From: Ornithinibacter aureus
GTDB lineage: Bacteria > Actinomycetota > Actinomycetes > Actinomycetales > Dermatophilaceae
Length of the DNA stretch: 64,000 bases
Direction of reading: 5' to 3'
NCBI RefSeq assembly: GCF_009858245.1
Contig: NZ_VMSB01000001.1
Location: 1,178,001-1,242,000, forward strand
Part shown: in pieces, positions 36,220 to 58,111 of the stretch
Layout of the letters: every line of letters starts with the position of its first letter
How positions within the stretch are numbered: position 1 is the stretch's first letter
Translations under genes and position numbers: made by a program
Notes under the pieces: model-generated
Databases searched by the model: none
What the model saw: the letters and a program-made list of their open reading frames with translations, nothing else
Told to the model about the DNA's origin: nothing

Positions 36220-37812
36220 TCAGCGGGGGGCGACTCCGGCGCGCACCAGACCGTAGGTGACCGACTCGACCAGGGCGTCCCACGATGCCTCGAGGATGTT
36301 CGCGGCCACCCCGATGGTGGTCCACGATGTCGTCCCGTCGGAGGTCTCGATGAGAACCCGCGTGACGGCATCCGTGCCGTGCGCCGCGTCGAGGATGCGC
36401 ACCTTGTAGTCGATGAGCTCGAGGTGGCCGATCTCGGGGTAGGCGGCAGCGAGCGAGGAGCGCAGCGCGTGGTCGAGGGCGTTGACCGGGCCGTTGCCCT
36501 CGCCGGTCTGCACGACCCGCTCCCCGGCCGCCGCCAGCTTGACGGTCGCCTCGGAGAGGGCGTCGTCGTCGCCGCGGGCATCGGTGATCACGCGCCAGGA
36601 CTCGACCTCGAAGAACGCGGGCAGGACGCCGTCGACCTCACGCCGCAGGAGCAGCTCGAAGCTGGCGTCCGCGGCGTCGAAGGTGTAGCCGCGCAGCTCC
36701 TTGTCCTTGACGGAGCGCAGCACCCGGGCGAGCGTGGCGGCATCCGCCTCGTCCGATGGGTCGAGGTCGAAGCCGAGCTCGCGCGACTTCAGCTCGATGG
36801 AGGCGCGCCCGGCCATGTCGGACACGAGCATGCGCATGTCGTTGCCGACGTGCTTGGGGTCCATGTGCTGGTAGAGGTCGGGGTCGACCTTGATCGCGCT
36901 GGCGTGCAGGCCGGCCTTGTGGGCGAAGGCGCTCGAGCCGACGTAGGGCTGGCGGGAGTACGCCGGCACGTTGGTGACCTCGGCGATGGCGTGGGCGATG
37001 CGGGTGGACTCCTGAAGCCGGTGCGGCTCGAGCAGGTCCAGCCCCTTCTTCAGCTGGAGGTTGGCGACCACGGTGAGCAGGTCGGCGTTGCCGGTGCGCT
37101 CGCCGTACCCGTTGACCGTTCCCTGCACGTGGGTGGCGCCGGCGTCGACCGCCGCCATCGAGTTGGCGACGGCGCACCCGGTGTCGTTGTGGCAGTGGAT
37201 GCCGATGCGCGCGCCGGTGCTGACGACGACGTCGCGCACGACGTCGGCCACCTGGTCGGGCAGCATGCCGCCGTTGGTGTCGCACAGGGCGATGACCTCG
37301 GCGCCGGACTCGGCCGCGGCGCGCACGGCCTCGAGGGCATAGGCCCGGTCGGTGGCGTAGCCGTCGAAGAAGTGCTCGGCATCGAGGAACACGCGGCGGC
37401 CCTCGCCGCGCAGGAACGACACGGTGTCGCGGATCATCTCGAGGTTCTCCTCGAGCGTGGTGCGCAGGGCCCGCTCGACGTGGCCGGTGTGCGACTTCGC
37501 GACGAGCGTGATCACCTGCGCCTGGCTGTCCAGCAGCGCCCGTACGAGCGGGTCCCTCGCCGCACGCCCCCCGGCCCGACGGGTTGCGCCGAAGGCGGCC
37601 AGGGTGGCGTTGCGCAGGCGAAGGTCCGTGGCGGCCCGCGCGAAGAACTCGGTGTCCTTGGGGTTGGCGCCCGGCCACCCGCCCTCGATGAAGCCGACGC
37701 CCAGGTCGTCGAGGTGCGCGGAGATGGCGAGCTTGTCACCCACGGAGAGGTTGAGGCCCTCCTGCTGGGCGCCGTCACGCAGCGTCGTGTCGTAGACGTG
37801 GAGGTCACTCAT
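36220..37812 (-). CDS. cimA: Citramalate synthase
   Basis: Condenses pyruvate and acetyl-CoA to (R)-citramalate, the first step of threonine-independent isoleucine synthesis. The ATG at 37812 starts MSDLHVYDTTLRDGAQQEG, the HMGL-like metal/active-site signature; 530 residues. HCHNDTGCAVANSMAAVDAGATHVQGTVNGYGERTGNADL holds the metal-binding histidines, and the C-terminal LeuA-type regulatory domain starts near 380, so feedback inhibition (typically by isoleucine) is expected. It belongs to the long TIGR00977-type family rather than LeuA. LeuCD and LeuB in this window carry out the next steps. The upstream 240 bases hold a peptide-coding leader and terminator (38001-38096). Confidence 0.94.
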   Translation of the reverse strand: MSDLHVYDTTLRDGAQQEGLNLSVGDKLAISAHLDDLGVGFIEGGWPGANPKDTEFFARAATDLRLRNATLAAFGATRRAGGRAARDPLVRALLDSQAQVITLVAKSHTGHVERALRTTLEENLEMIRDTVSFLRGEGRRVFLDAEHFFDGYATDRAYALEAVRAAAESGAEVIALCDTNGGMLPDQVADVVRDVVVSTGARIGIHCHNDTGCAVANSMAAVDAGATHVQGTVNGYGERTGNADLLTVVANLQLKKGLDLLEPHRLQESTRIAHAIAEVTNVPAYSRQPYVGSSAFAHKAGLHASAIKVDPDLYQHMDPKHVGNDMRMLVSDMAGRASIELKSRELGFDLDPSDEADAATLARVLRSVKDKELRGYTFDAADASFELLLRREVDGVLPAFFEVESWRVITDARGDDDALSEATVKLAAAGERVVQTGEGNGPVNALDHALRSSLAAAYPEIGHLELIDYKVRILDAAHGTDAVTRVLIETSDGTTSWTTIGVAANILEASWDALVESVTYGLVRAGVAPR

Positions 37813-38000
37813 CGGTTCTCGTTCACCCGGATCGCTCTGCCGGTACACCCGGCGTCGTGTGCCCCGGCCCGTGCGGGCCGGGGCGATGACGTGTGCTGCT
37901 TGCCGTTCCATTCTCGGGCCAGCGCTGCCGTCGTGCCGCCCGGGGGTGGGGGCGGCCGACCCTTGCTCCCCGGTCCCGCCGCACCTGCGACGCTCCGACA

Positions 38001-38030
38001 AGCAAAAGACCCCCCGGGTGCGGGAGGTCT
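38001..38030 (-). terminator. Terminator hairpin of the cimA attenuator
   Basis: On the minus strand AGACC pairs with GGTCT around an inner CCC/GGG stem (one C-A mismatch), followed directly by TTTTGCTTG. It begins one base after the upstream hairpin 38031-38055 and lies 189 bases before cimA, so it is a leader terminator. Confidence 0.8.
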
Positions 38031-38055
38031 GCGCGACGAGGAGTTCTCGTCGCGC
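38031..38055 (-). promoter_or_regulatory. Leader (pause) hairpin of the cimA attenuator
   Basis: Perfect 10-bp arms GCGCGACGAG and CTCGTCGCGC (38031-38040 and 38046-38055 on the plus strand) with a 5-base loop. The 5' arm on the RNA starts at the last base of the leader-peptide stop codon, so a ribosome stalled on the Leu-Ile-Ile codons would cover it. Confidence 0.75.
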
Positions 38056-38096
38056 TAGCCGATAATGAGCGTGGCGGTGGCCACAGGAAGCATCAC
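38055..38096 (-). CDS. cimA leader peptide (Leu/Val/Ile/Thr-rich)
   Basis: Thirteen codons: (M)MLPVATATLIIG then TAG, starting at GTG 38096 or ATG 38093. Leu, Val, Leu, Ile, Ile and two Thr codons precede a hairpin and terminator, the arrangement of a ribosome-mediated attenuator. GACAGT at 38103-38108 stands 6 bases before the GTG, the same spacing as in the ilvB leader, suggesting that both peptides start leaderless transcripts. The codon enrichment for branched-chain residues matches the pathway of the downstream gene. Too short to be found by length criteria. Confidence 0.75.
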   Translation of the reverse strand: MMLPVATATLIIG

Positions 38097-38102
38097 CCGC
38101 AC

Positions 38103-38108
38103 ACTGTC
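38103..38108 (-). promoter_or_regulatory. Candidate -10 box of the cimA leader
   Basis: GACAGT followed by 6 bases and GTG. The same hexamer and spacing precede the ilvB leader peptide. No convincing -35 was found. Confidence 0.45.
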
Positions 38109-38222
38109 GCACGGCGGGGTGGGCCGGGCACAGCCGGCGTCCACATGCTGGCGGCCACGGGAACGACGACCCGGCCCGACGGCATCCGATCACGCCCGCT
38201 CCGATCACGCCTGCCCCGGGCA

Positions 38223-38270: not shown

Positions 38271-41200
38271 TCAGGGAGCGGAGACGAGCACCGACCCGGT
38301 ACCGAGCACGGCACCGGCCGCGGTGACGACGTTCATCTCACCGAAGAGCTGGCGCCCGGCAGCCGCGGGAGCCGTCGCCGTGAGCGAGCCCGTGACCGTG
38401 GCCGACTGCCCACCATCGAGGGTGAGGGCCGTTCCGGGGACCGTGAGGGTCCCGAGCGCCGACGAGAAGAACACGTCGAGGTAGTCGTACTCGGTCGTGC
38501 CTGCGGGCACGGAGTACCCGTCGACGACCACCGTGTACGTCCCGGCCGCCGGGTTGGCGAGCGAGACCGACTCGTCGGAGTCACCGTCGGCGTCCTGACC
38601 GACCAGCGCACCGGCGGCGTTGTAGACCGACAGGTCCAGGTCAGCCGACAGGTCCGAGGGGTTGCCGATGCTCACGTCGAGTCGCTGCGCCCCGGCCGGA
38701 ACCTCGACCTCGAACTCCTCGGATGCCGCGTCGGCGATGCTCGGGCGCTGGCTGACGGCCGACCCGAGGTTGCCACCCTTGGGCGTGACCGTGACCGGGC
38801 CGAAGTCGTTGCGCACCGTCCACGAGACCGGGGTGGCCTCGCCGATGGGGGCAGCGACGGTCTGGATCGCCGGGTCGACCGTGACGCCCTGGGCGGCAGC
38901 CGTCAGGCGGTACGGGTTCTCGAGGAACGGCGAGGTGCGCCGCGACTCGACGATGAGCTCCCAGACACCCGGGATCGGGTTGCTGTACGCCCGCGAGTTC
39001 GCGTTGCAGGACGAGCCGGGGAAGTTCGTGTAGCACTGCGTCGTCGCCGTCGGGTCCACCGGGACGCCGTACGGGTTGAACGCGACCCAGCGAACCTGGC
39101 TGTTCGTCGCGATGCCACCGAGGTTGACCTGAAGGGCCTTGGTGCCCTCGGGGACGGTCACGAAGTGGCGCTTGACGAGGTTGCGCTCGACCTCGCTGGT
39201 CTTGGTCAGCGAGTACGAGGGCTTCTTCAGGTCTTCGGACGCCACCACGGCGAGCATGACGCGGTGGTCGACGACGCCGGTCCTGGGGTCGTCGACGACG
39301 AGGATCGCGGAGTGCAGACCGGCCGTGCGCGGCTTGGCCACGACGGTGATGGCCCGAGCGCGGTCCAGACGAAGGGATGCCGCCGACGGAACCGTGAAGG
39401 TGCCGTCGTTGCCGATCAGACGGACGCGGTGCGCCACGGCGCCCGAGGCACCGGAGGTGCGGGTCACCTTGACGGTGTAGGTCTTGCTCTGACCGACCTT
39501 GTGGCCGCCCTCGCCCGCGGCGCAGCGGTTGTAGACACCGGTGCCGCGGTCGGGGGTGGCCAGGAAGTCGGAGATCGGCGTGCAGACCGGTGCGTCGGTG
39601 GTGAACGTGCGCGTCGCCGGCTTGGTCTTCAGCAGCTTCCAGGACGCCGGCACGTCGATCTGCCCGTTGCCCTGGGACACCGCCTCGACACCCTTGACGA
39701 AGTCAGCCGTGGTGTACATCGACTCACGCAGCTGTGCGGGGGTGATCGGCGTGCCCGTGGCGAACCCGGCCGAGAGCAGCAGGGCTGCCCCACCGGCGGC
39801 CTGCGGGGAGGCCATCGACGTCCCGTTGAACATCGCGTACCCGACGGGGAGGGTGTAGCCGGTCTCCGCGACGCCTGGCTGCTCGAGCCACTGCGGCACG
39901 CTCGAGACCGCCGAACCCGGGGCCATGACGTTGGGCTTGAAGCCGCCGTCCTCCCGAGGGCCGCGTGAGGAGTAGTTGTGCAGCGTCAGCGGGGTGGAGA
40001 CGACCGAGCCGTAGTTGGACAGCCAGGTCTCCTTGCTCACCGACGACGCCACGCTGACCACGCTCGTCGCGACCGACGGGTCGCCGATCGTGTTGATGCC
40101 GGCGCCGCTGTTGCCGGCGGAGATGAACAGCTGGACGCCGTATTCGTCGATGAGCGCGTCGTAGAGGCGGGCCCGGGCGTTGTTGCCGTCGTTGAGGGCG
40201 GGCAGGCCACCGATCGACATGTTGACGACGTCGACGCCACGGTTGGCGACGAGGTCGACCATGCCGTCGGTCAGGGCCGCTGCGGTGCAGCCGCCACCCC
40301 AGGTGCAGGCCCGCGAGGAGACGACCTTGGCACCGGGTGCCTGACCGTCGACGGCCCCACCGAACAGGCTGTTGCCCGCCGCGATGCCGGCGACGTGGCT
40401 GCCGTGGGCGTCCTCGACGATGCCGATGTTGACGAAGTCCGCCGTGCCGGGCAGGCCGGCCGGCGTGACGTCGACACCCTTGCGATACTCGACGACGAAC
40501 GGCATCCGCTCGACGACGTCGGTCGCCGGGTTGTCGGTGCCGAAGTGGCCGATGTCGAAGTTCTCCTTGTAGGGGCGCATCTTCTCGCTCGCCTCGAAGG
40601 TGAAGTTCTGGTTGGCGTCGACCCAGATGTCGTTGGTCGCCGGGTCGAACAGCACACCGAAGCGGTCGGTGGTGTCACCGTCACGGTTCACGTCGCCACC
40701 GGGCTCGCTCGCCGCAGTGATGCTCTCGCTGAACCGGTTGATCTTGTACGACCCGGAGGACGGGAGGGTCCAGGTCGACGAGGCGTACGACGCCTCCGGG
40801 CCGGTCACATCGGTGAGCATGGCCCGCCACGTGCCGTCACCGTCGAACAGCGGGTCGGTCGCGGTCACCCAGTCGACGATCTTGCGCTCGCCGGTCGTCG
40901 TGGTCTGCAGGGCAGGGTGGTCGAGGTCGACACCGGAGTCGATGACGCCGATGGTCACGCCACGCCCGTCCCAGGTCGGGTGGGCGGTGCGGAAGTCCAC
41001 CGAGCCGATCTCGTTGGTCGGCATGTACGGGTTGACCTCGGGCGTCGACGGGCCGGGTGCGTCGACGGATGCCGTGGCCCCCGCGCGTCCGGAGCTCTCG
41101 ACCGTGGGGTCGGGCAGCGGGATCGACTCGTTGAGGTCGACGGCCAGGACCTTGGCCAGGCCGGCGACCTTCTCCACGGCCGAGGTCGGCACGGTCGCGC

Positions 41201-41558
41201 GCACGTACCCGATGCGGTCGTTGGTCATGCCGGTGAAGCCGCCGTTGGCCTTCACCGAGGCAGCAACCCCCTTCGTGGCGCCCTTCTCGGTCGCCAGCAG
41301 GATGGTCACTCGCTTCTCGCCCTTGCTGCGGGCCTTCTCGAGCAGCTGACGGTCGTGCTGGCCCAGCTTGTCCTTGCTGGCCTTCTTCTTCAGCGTGCCC
41401 TTGTCGGCGTTGGCCTTGGGGGCGGTGACCTTGGCCCGGGGTTCGGGCTCTGCGGCACCTGCGGACGTGGCCGTGGTCGAGACCAGGCCCGCCGCGAGGG
41501 CAGCCGCTGCAAGGGCTGCGAGCGCTGTTCGCGCTGGTTGGGTGGAACGTCGTGACAT
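38271..41558 (-). CDS. Secreted subtilisin-like serine protease (S8) with PPC-type C-terminal domain
   Basis: 1095 residues from the ATG at 41558 (MSRRSTQPARTALAALAAAA...), chosen because GGATGC stands 8-10 bases upstream; two earlier ATGs are possible. A signal peptide ends near residue 36, and an inhibitor-I9-like propeptide occupies about 60-150. The catalytic triad is Asp207 in GVIDSGVDLDH, His near 383 in DAHGSHVAGIAAGN and Ser near 579 in FNGTSMASPQAAGG. A PA-like insertion lies between Asp and His. The C-terminal third contains beta-rich repeats and a pre-peptidase (PPC) domain, AGALVGQDADGDSDESVSLANPAAGTYTVVVDG. It is monocistronic. An extracellular degradative protease is the natural reading. 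Confidence 0.94.
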   Translation of the reverse strand: MSRRSTQPARTALAALAAAALAAGLVSTTATSAGAAEPEPRAKVTAPKANADKGTLKKKASKDKLGQHDRQLLEKARSKGEKRVTILLATEKGATKGVAASVKANGGFTGMTNDRIGYVRATVPTSAVEKVAGLAKVLAVDLNESIPLPDPTVESSGRAGATASVDAPGPSTPEVNPYMPTNEIGSVDFRTAHPTWDGRGVTIGVIDSGVDLDHPALQTTTTGERKIVDWVTATDPLFDGDGTWRAMLTDVTGPEASYASSTWTLPSSGSYKINRFSESITAASEPGGDVNRDGDTTDRFGVLFDPATNDIWVDANQNFTFEASEKMRPYKENFDIGHFGTDNPATDVVERMPFVVEYRKGVDVTPAGLPGTADFVNIGIVEDAHGSHVAGIAAGNSLFGGAVDGQAPGAKVVSSRACTWGGGCTAAALTDGMVDLVANRGVDVVNMSIGGLPALNDGNNARARLYDALIDEYGVQLFISAGNSGAGINTIGDPSVATSVVSVASSVSKETWLSNYGSVVSTPLTLHNYSSRGPREDGGFKPNVMAPGSAVSSVPQWLEQPGVAETGYTLPVGYAMFNGTSMASPQAAGGAALLLSAGFATGTPITPAQLRESMYTTADFVKGVEAVSQGNGQIDVPASWKLLKTKPATRTFTTDAPVCTPISDFLATPDRGTGVYNRCAAGEGGHKVGQSKTYTVKVTRTSGASGAVAHRVRLIGNDGTFTVPSAASLRLDRARAITVVAKPRTAGLHSAILVVDDPRTGVVDHRVMLAVVASEDLKKPSYSLTKTSEVERNLVKRHFVTVPEGTKALQVNLGGIATNSQVRWVAFNPYGVPVDPTATTQCYTNFPGSSCNANSRAYSNPIPGVWELIVESRRTSPFLENPYRLTAAAQGVTVDPAIQTVAAPIGEATPVSWTVRNDFGPVTVTPKGGNLGSAVSQRPSIADAASEEFEVEVPAGAQRLDVSIGNPSDLSADLDLSVYNAAGALVGQDADGDSDESVSLANPAAGTYTVVVDGYSVPAGTTEYDYLDVFFSSALGTLTVPGTALTLDGGQSATVTGSLTATAPAAAGRQLFGEMNVVTAAGAVLGTGSVLVSAP

Positions 41559-41715
41559 GTGGCGCATCCTGTCGGGAAGGGTGGTGAGTGAACCCCCGGG
41601 TCGGTTGGTGCGGGCACAGTGCACCATGACGCCCCCGTCCAGCGGGAGGATCTTTCCCGATTTCTGACTATTCCTTTACCTTTTGCGGTGTCGCTCCTGA
41701 CGTTCGCGTCAAGCG

Positions 41716-57984: not shown

Positions 57985-58021
57985 AAAAAAACCCTCCAGC
58001 CCCACGGGGGACGACGGAGGG
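57985..58021 (-). terminator. Terminator hairpin of the ilvB attenuator
   Basis: On the minus strand CCCTCC pairs with GGAGGG (58016-58021 with 57992-57997), an inner CCCC/GGGG stem and short internal loop sit inside, and seven Ts follow (57985-57991). It is 56 bases before the ilvB start codon and directly after the leader hairpin, so it can end transcription in the leader. Confidence 0.88.
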
Positions 58022-58022
58022 A

Positions 58023-58050
58023 GCGCGTCTGCCTGATCGGTCAGACGCGC
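58023..58050 (-). promoter_or_regulatory. Leader (pause) hairpin of the ilvB attenuator
   Basis: Perfect 9-bp arms GCGCGTCTG (58023-58031) and CAGACGCGC (58042-58050) with a 10-base loop. The RNA 5' arm covers the last three sense codons of the leader peptide, so a ribosome stalled on the Val/Leu codons would prevent its formation. Confidence 0.8.
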
Positions 58051-58076
58051 CGTGAAAGTACGAGGACTCGGGCCAC
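58041..58076 (-). CDS. ilvB leader peptide (Val/Leu-rich)
   Basis: Eleven codons: (M)ARVLVLSRRV then TGA, from the GTG at 58076. Three Val and two Leu codons just before a hairpin and a U-tailed terminator are the hallmark of BCAA attenuation. It resembles the known Streptomyces ilvB leader pattern (RILVLGKRV-like). GACAGT at 58083-58088 stands 6 bases before the GTG and TTGACA (58106-58111) a further 17 bases upstream. Too short to be called by length. Confidence 0.85.
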   Translation of the reverse strand: MARVLVLSRRV

Positions 58077-58082
58077 CCCTGA

Positions 58083-58111
58083 ACTGTCCCCCGCCGGGGT
58101 GGTCGTGTCAA
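58083..58111 (-). promoter_or_regulatory. Promoter of the ilvBNC operon
   Basis: Minus-strand TTGACA at 58106-58111, 17-base spacer, GACAGT at 58083-58088, then 6 bases to the leader-peptide GTG. The -35 is a perfect consensus; the -10 is weak but matches the cimA leader. Confidence 0.6.

Follow-up and report, generated by a model that had tools for sequence, protein, structure and literature searches.

A widespread leader of the citramalate synthase gene cimA in actinobacteria, with the layout of an isoleucine-responsive attenuator

In the stretch of 64,000 nucleotides from Ornithinibacter aureus analysed here (the window), the citramalate synthase gene cimA is preceded by a short open reading frame with two adjacent isoleucine codons near its end, a perfect hairpin and a second, terminator-like hairpin. 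Does this leader control cimA in response to isoleucine and, if so, how could a ribosome on the short reading frame act on a terminator that shares no base with the hairpin before it? We consider isoleucine-responsive attenuation of cimA as such to be very probable, and only slightly less so the fuller reading in which a ribosome-mediated transcription attenuator senses Ile-tRNA with the first hairpin (P1) as antiterminator. The least certain step is the manner in which P1 would prevent the second hairpin (P2).

The cimA leader and its parts

Direct reading of the minus strand gave the GTG-ATG leader, the residues LPVATATLIIG and the TAG stop exactly as a preliminary description of the locus had them (GTG at 38096-38094, ATG at 38093-38091, TAG at 38057-38055). 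The perfect 10-bp hairpin said to begin at the stop codon is equally exact: P1 occupies 38055-38031, with the 5' arm GCGCGACGAG at 38055-38046, the loop AACTC and the 3' arm CTCGTCGCGC at 38040-38031, and the G of TAG is its first base. The terminator with TTTT that had been placed one base further on was found with arms AGACCTCCCG (38030-38021) and CGGGGGGTCT (38016-38007) and a T-run at 38007-38004; the gap between P1 and P2 is 0 nt if the closing A-U pair of P2 is included and 1 nt otherwise. The downstream gene, named as cimA in that description, is cimA by its protein family score. The parts are as follows.

36220-37812, minus strand: cimA, citramalate synthase, the proposed regulated gene (TIGR00977, 632.9 bits, cutoff 450)
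38004-38030, minus strand: P2, predicted intrinsic terminator hairpin and T-run, flush with P1 (fold, covariation)
38031-38055, minus strand: P1, proposed antiterminator hairpin, GCGCGACGAG / CTCGTCGCGC (covariation, constant GCGCG/CGCGC base)
38061-38066, minus strand: proposed regulatory Ile codons ATT ATC, ending 5 nt 5' of P1 (spacing conserved)
38071-38084, minus strand: P0, small hairpin within the reading frame, GTGGC-CACC-GCCAC (covariation in the family)
38055-38096, minus strand: leader reading frame GTG-ATG-CTT-CCT-GTG-GCC-ACC-GCC-ACG-CTC-ATT-ATC-GGC-TAG, peptide fMMLPVATATLIIG, predicted to be leaderless (sequence, conservation)
38103-38111, minus strand: extended -10-like promoter element TGC-GACAGT, 6 bases 5' of the leader GTG (sequence, pattern match)
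57985-58088, minus strand: ilvB leader of the same layout, with -10-like GACAGT, reading frame fMARVLVLSRRV, P1 GCGCGTCTG/CAGACGCGC, terminator and T-run (sequence)

The predicted fold of the cimA leader contains both P1 and P2 (-54.5 kcal/mol, z = -4.81) and none of 200 shuffles was equally low. A strict script found two terminator-like sites in the 64-kb window, one of which, that of the cimA leader, lies flush with a hairpin on its upstream side. Twenty dinucleotide shuffles of this window yielded between 0 and 2 terminator-like sites apiece and zero flush tandems. The motif GACAGT-N6-GTG, claimed for both cimA and ilvB, is present at 38108-38094 and 58088-58074, two matches that are not rare by themselves (chance mean 0.61; at least two in 14 of 100 shuffles). 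Searches of Rfam gave no match near the cimA leader at gathering score. At eight loci searched with E up to 1 there were only two matches, both far under their gathering scores, of which one overlies the leader of locus L171 (Atu_C8, 26 bits vs 50). A riboswitch, T-box or other Rfam cis-element was rejected, as Rfam gave nothing convincing.

Three further sequence features accompany the leader. The heptamer TGTGGAC (38139-38145 in the window, minus strand) precedes the -10-like element by no more than 60 nt, most commonly by 29 nt; it was found in 30 of 101 family leaders, in 33 of 185 overall and never in a control window, and is possibly a protein site. Past P2, at 20-140 nt, ACACCC occurs in 35 of 105 family leaders compared with 6 in a control window (for example L020, L026 and L031), and frequently sits in a loop flanked by a small inverted repeat. 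A GC-rich hairpin, CCCCGGCCCGCACGGGCCGGGG, is located at 37862-37883 on the minus strand, about 50 nt before the cimA start, and is shared by close loci, among them L007, L010 and L012.

Conservation, covariation and association with cimA

We surveyed the family through 149 genomes with CimA, of which 110 upstream regions were read (30 loci from the first listings and 80 fetched); CimA rows or fragments of about a dozen genomes, such as G004, G033, G048, G097, G105 and G085, fell outside this survey. Leader, P1 and P2 precede cimA at 105 of the 110 loci. The five loci that lack the leader come from four genomes of one genus (L095, L097, L100 and L103) and from L101, where the end of the gene before cimA resembles ilvE. 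P1 and P2 covary strongly. When 44 family representatives were aligned, 92.2% of the pair cells were standard, and 107 cells had changed on both sides, compared with 36.1 in shuffled alignments and at most 16 in slid controls. In the same representatives, P0 showed changes on both sides in all five pairs, and its two helix segments had 80.3% and 73.9% of their cells paired. P0 was missing, by eye, from many short leaders in other families; it occurs mainly in longer leaders and was rejected as a general element. Since both threonine codons of the leader lie in the covarying P0, they may be structural rather than sensory.

Beyond the family, our model R1 matched 155 of 396 genomes of the order, and CimA is present in 214 of the same 396. 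A leader match was found in 154 of these 214 genomes, while the 182 genomes without CimA gave a single one (G496, weak, E = 9e-4). All 20 R1 matches that were fetched from other families precede cimA. The 60 CimA genomes without a leader match count against the proposed attenuator. Fourteen of the 60 were inspected; in 11 of them (loci L278-L280, L282-L284 and L286-L290) the leader is absent and cimA follows a gene ending like ilvE, a neighbour that was confirmed as a branched-chain aminotransferase in two of the 11. In such genomes control may therefore have shifted to an operon leader.

Of 80 named cimA loci, 34 have the leader, with representatives in Pedococcus, Nonomuraea, Planotetraspora, Cellulomonas, Isoptericola, Demequina, Motilibacter, Streptomonospora, Amycolatopsis, Kutzneria, Lentzea, Pseudonocardia and Nocardioides; two Acidimicrobiia records (L221 and L226) also carry it. 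The 46 named loci without the leader include cimA genes apparently placed behind ilvE and every non-actinobacterial record. Two Nitriliruptoria loci (L216 and L220) have, by eye, Ile codons and a hairpin resembling P1 but lack a U-tract, and they gave no match to model R2; their cimA upstream regions perhaps represent another control mode. Across the class, matches were obtained in 177 of 296, a tally that takes cimA and ilvB leaders together and gives no count for cimA; of 20 R2 matches fetched, 12 precede cimA and 4 precede ilvB. An alignment of 98 sequences contained 295 cells changed on both sides, compared with 91.4 when shuffled and at most 25 when slid, although this alignment was fitted to R2 and is thus biased towards the R2 structure. 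In this comparison with relatives, the leader codons, the hairpin and the T-run were kept far beyond the close ones, so the attenuator claim of the preliminary description withstood the check; it is this comparison that supplies the deciding evidence. The sequence of the cimA leader, its conservation and covariation, its association with the gene and its geometry are matters of direct observation.

Leader geometry and the proposed switch

For the geometry of the leader we used 255 upstream sequences, which gave 212 tandem hairpins. Eight with low scores were dropped and five ilvB-type loci were set aside, leaving 199 rows, of which one (L234, Gallionellaceae) is spurious and 198 are genuine leaders. 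The rows include near-identical relatives or one place taken twice (for example L261 and L306), and the counts below are not independent events, because scoring rewarded short gaps and Ile codons and many of the rows come from close relatives.

A -10-like hexamer lies 5-8 nt before the in-frame start in 185 of the 199 rows (control rate 0.27), with TG at the extended -10 position in 141. As the hexamer sits so close to the start codon, cimA leaders are predicted to be leaderless, and mostly to have 8-17 codons. The reading frame before cimA carries codons for the end product of the pathway in a fixed register: in 168 of the 198 leaders P1 lies 5 nt past the end of the last Ile codon, and the codon preceding that one is also Ile in 158 of those 168. 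The gap between P1 and P2 is 0 nt in 163 leaders, 1 nt in 33, 2 nt in one and 4 nt in one. The stop codon coincides with the start of P1 in 169 leaders and lies 7-16 nt further on in 29, and these late-stop leaders have a longer P1 loop (median 15 vs 5 nt, p = 2e-14). The five pairs of P1 that adjoin P2 are GCGCG/CGCGC in 183 of 199 rows (38055-38051 with 38035-38031 in the window), a constancy that exceeds structural need, while the pairs above them vary and covary. In 195 of 199 rows the six base-proximal pairs of P1 are more stable than those of P2. Between the leader reading frame and the first gene stands a predicted intrinsic terminator, the covarying P2 with its T-run; a U-tract follows P2 in the rows found, T's having been required by the search.

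From these features we infer where transcription would start and end, that isoleucine would be sensed and in which direction the effect would go. The promoter-like sequence suggests that a leaderless transcript begins at the leader GTG. With ample charged Ile-tRNA, the ribosome would pass the Ile codons and reach the stop, where its leading edge would cover the 5' arm of P1; P1 would then be open and, as the geometry suggests, P2 would form and transcription would end before cimA. With Ile-tRNA scarce, the ribosome would wait at ATT ATC with its leading edge at the base of P1, P1 would form, and RNA polymerase would pass P2 into cimA. As P1 would be opened or kept by the position of the ribosome, it would be the switched element and take the role of antiterminator.

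We took the leading edge of the ribosome to lie 12 nt downstream of the first nucleotide of the A-site codon, a toeprint value. With this edge, 70% or more of the P1 5' arm lies under a ribosome at the stop in 198 of 199 rows, and the 3' arm stays clear of it in 187. A ribosome waiting at the first Ile codon reaches no more than 2 nt into P1 in 181 rows, so that by geometry P1 depends on the position of the ribosome. The result is sensitive to the value chosen: with an edge of 13 nt, P1 is essentially uncovered by the ribosome at the first Ile codon in only 80 of 199 rows, which counts against the proposal. In the 29 late-stop rows, a ribosome at the stop leaves the 3' arm of P1 free in 17 and partly covers it in 12 with the real loops; modelled with a 5-nt loop, the arm is partly covered in all 29. 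The codon position, the placement of the stop and the length of the loop all fit the proposed switch. The ribosome at the first Ile codon covers all upstream RNA in 82 of 185 leaders, and in these P1 is the only candidate switch because everything upstream is hidden.

The step from P1 to P2 departs from base-paired exclusion of antiterminator and terminator. P1 and P2 have no nucleotide in common and both fold at equilibrium. With the ribosome at the first Ile codon, P2 has a predicted pairing probability of 0.92 or more (median 1.0); with the ribosome at the stop the median is again 1.0, the minimum is 0.49 and three rows fall below 0.9. The predictions thus have P2 forming whether P1 is present or absent and show no thermodynamic switch, which counts against the proposal. 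Three base-paired antiterminators were tried and rejected: the extension of P1 into P2 (at least two extra pairs in only 16 of 199 rows), pairing of an upstream GTGCGGG with CCCGCAC (by eye, lost in some relatives), and ACCTCC-like P1 loops that repeat the 5' arm of P2 (by eye, seen in part of the loops). Because free RNA shows no competition between P1 and P2, and because the base of P1 is constant and stabler than that of P2, we propose that P1 blocks P2 sterically in the RNA exit channel. In its most general form, which we put forward as a tentative idea and rather doubt, P1 would be an antiterminator sharing no nucleotide with the terminator: its GC-locked base, 0-1 nt upstream, would hinder the zipping of the P2 foot in the exit channel, the terminating ribosome would lift the block, and the same principle would hold in actinobacteria for cimA, ilvB and probably leuS. 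If this reading is true, an untranslated leader would be ON and a spacer of a few nucleotides would abolish the switch. Published observations count against parts of the proposed attenuator. Changes to candidate codons are reported to have left the regulation of ilvB in Streptomyces coelicolor unaffected (PMC1262725), and tandem hairpins after gyrA of Mycobacterium smegmatis are stated to terminate better than a single one (PMC8355165), which argues against a blocking role of P1. In Corynebacterium glutamicum ilvBNC, expression fell by 80% when the leader start codon was lost (PMC11857589); this opposes simple blocking by P1, since blocking predicts the reverse for an untranslated leader.

These last two observations also speak for the main rival of P1 as a blocker, the same attenuator with a P1 that is solely a pausing or synchronising hairpin. 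Such a P1 would hold RNA polymerase in the 5' arm of P2 until the ribosome arrives, and read-through would be set kinetically by the coupling of ribosome and polymerase. Some 10 nt separate the end of P1 from a C-G step in the 5' arm of P2, a distance that resembles the spacing of known pause hairpins, and the compatibility of P1 and P2 at equilibrium suits this role. A pause alone, however, leaves the read-through upon ribosome stalling unexplained and calls neither for hairpins 0-1 nt apart nor for longer loops where the stop is late, and we regard it as possible without thinking it likely. A classical attenuator whose base-paired antiterminator escaped us, for example upstream leader RNA pairing with the 5' arm of P2, is distinctly less plausible. 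In its favour are the 5' arm ACCTCCC, which is less variable than the 3' arm (G or A opposite the U), and the GTGCGGG before the GTG, which by eye could pair with CCCGCAC of P2 in the genome studied here; yet this match is, by eye, lost in relatives such as L008 and L009, the stalled ribosome leaves no upstream RNA exposed in the 82 leaders mentioned above, and P1 rarely gains pairs into P2.

With P1 as a switched antiterminator still our preferred reading, the nature of the signal must also be weighed. Threonine or the branched-chain amino acids jointly might be sensed, or control might be post-transcriptional (translation or Rho): the loop of P0 holds a Thr codon, ACC, several leaders end in Ile-Thr, and Leu, Val or Ile stands before the Ile pair. 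We think a signal other than mainly isoleucine quite unlikely, given the prevalence of Ile at the codon before the last Ile (158 of 168 rows with 5-nt spacing), the many leaders of other families that, by eye, lack P0 and its Thr codon, and the U-tract after P2 in the rows found by a search that required it. In the least credible reading, a very improbable one, P1 and P2 would simply terminate transcription constitutively, either for the upstream gene or for a small RNA, and the short reading frame would be incidental. A gene does lie upstream on the same strand (38271-41627), but a constitutive terminator is at odds with Ile codons at a fixed distance from P1, with a stop position coupled to loop length, with a promoter-like element belonging to the leader itself and with a leader tied to cimA across families.

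Relation to ilvB leaders and other known systems

The likeness in layout to the ilvB leader, claimed in the preliminary description, holds both in the window, where ilvB was identified by NF005860 (1116.5 bits, cutoff 881), and in the ilvB leaders of the class. At 30 class loci the script found 28 tandems, with gaps of 0 nt in 9, 1 nt in 13, 2 nt in 1, 3 nt in 3 and 4 nt in 2, some of these pairings being doubtful; six further ilvB upstream regions read by eye have the same layout. Leu and Val codons occupy the register that Ile codons hold in cimA leaders. The cimA leaders share the features of the actinobacterial ilvB-type tandem-hairpin leader, namely a leaderless upstream reading frame, codons about 5 nt before a GCGCG-based hairpin and a terminator 0-1 nt on. 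A second R1 match in the genome studied here (L144; G000:C1, minus strand, 1049186-1049290) lies directly before leuS and reads fM-T-T-V-L-L-L-T, stop, hairpin and terminator, with a P1 less perfect than that of cimA. The third match in this genome (L145) was set aside as an ordinary terminator in appearance, by eye.

Among the systems compared, the best-tested relative is the ilvB1 attenuator of Mycobacterium tuberculosis as described in PMC13236596, which also has a short upstream reading frame with branched-chain codons (LVVI) and a terminator before the gene. There a ribosome at the stop masks the antiterminator and a stall at the codons permits it. It differs in carrying Leu, Val and Ile codons and in an antiterminator and terminator described as mutually exclusive; its function was tested with reporters. 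Leaders L342 and L343 carry LVVI with the same layout and are probably mycobacterial. The ilvBNC leader of C. glutamicum (the H1/H2/H3 model and ilvB-II motif of PMC11857589 and PMC10272879) likewise combines a leader peptide with side-by-side antiterminator and terminator hairpins; its transcript starts one nucleotide from the leader start codon and its terminator was shown by mutation. Its hairpins, however, overlap by a common GCC trinucleotide and H1 competes, whereas those of cimA are flush with no common base; the boundary trinucleotide of this 'fast' attenuator has no counterpart at cimA, as the extension of P1 into P2 is not conserved.

The candidate actinobacterial ilvB leaders of PMC1262725 and the Streptomyces lividans leader list of PMC8079986 contain, as at cimA, mostly leaderless peptides before amino-acid genes, and cimA was not found among the genes with leaders named in PMC1262725 and in Table 4 of PMC8079986. 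A conserved pseudoknot, the LEU element of leuA, is also described in PMC1262725. The S. lividans ilvL peptide MRTRILVLGKRVG in that list is identical to peptides in loci L333 and L337. Two of the R2 matches fetched from the class, which have a long P1 loop (L302 and L303), are probably from Streptomyces, because genomes of the same genus carry this ilvB leader peptide. In protein antitermination by phage P7 (PMC6624301), the exit channel is blocked so that the terminator hairpin cannot form, the principle proposed for P1; the blocker is a protein there, whereas at cimA it would be a neighbouring RNA hairpin.

The preliminary description had suggested that the leader might be new, and we found no cimA attenuator in the open-licence literature searched, a scope outside which most subscription papers lie. 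The cimA leader is a real, widespread and apparently undescribed case of a known control type. Because the cimA and ilvB leaders keep their geometry with swapped codons and their hairpins touch without common bases, the translation of ribosome position into read-through by ilvB-type leaders becomes directly testable. The leader is found throughout many orders of actinobacteria, a group that produces antibiotics and amino acids, and it adds a candidate isoleucine sensor dedicated to the citramalate route, the threonine-independent route to isoleucine.
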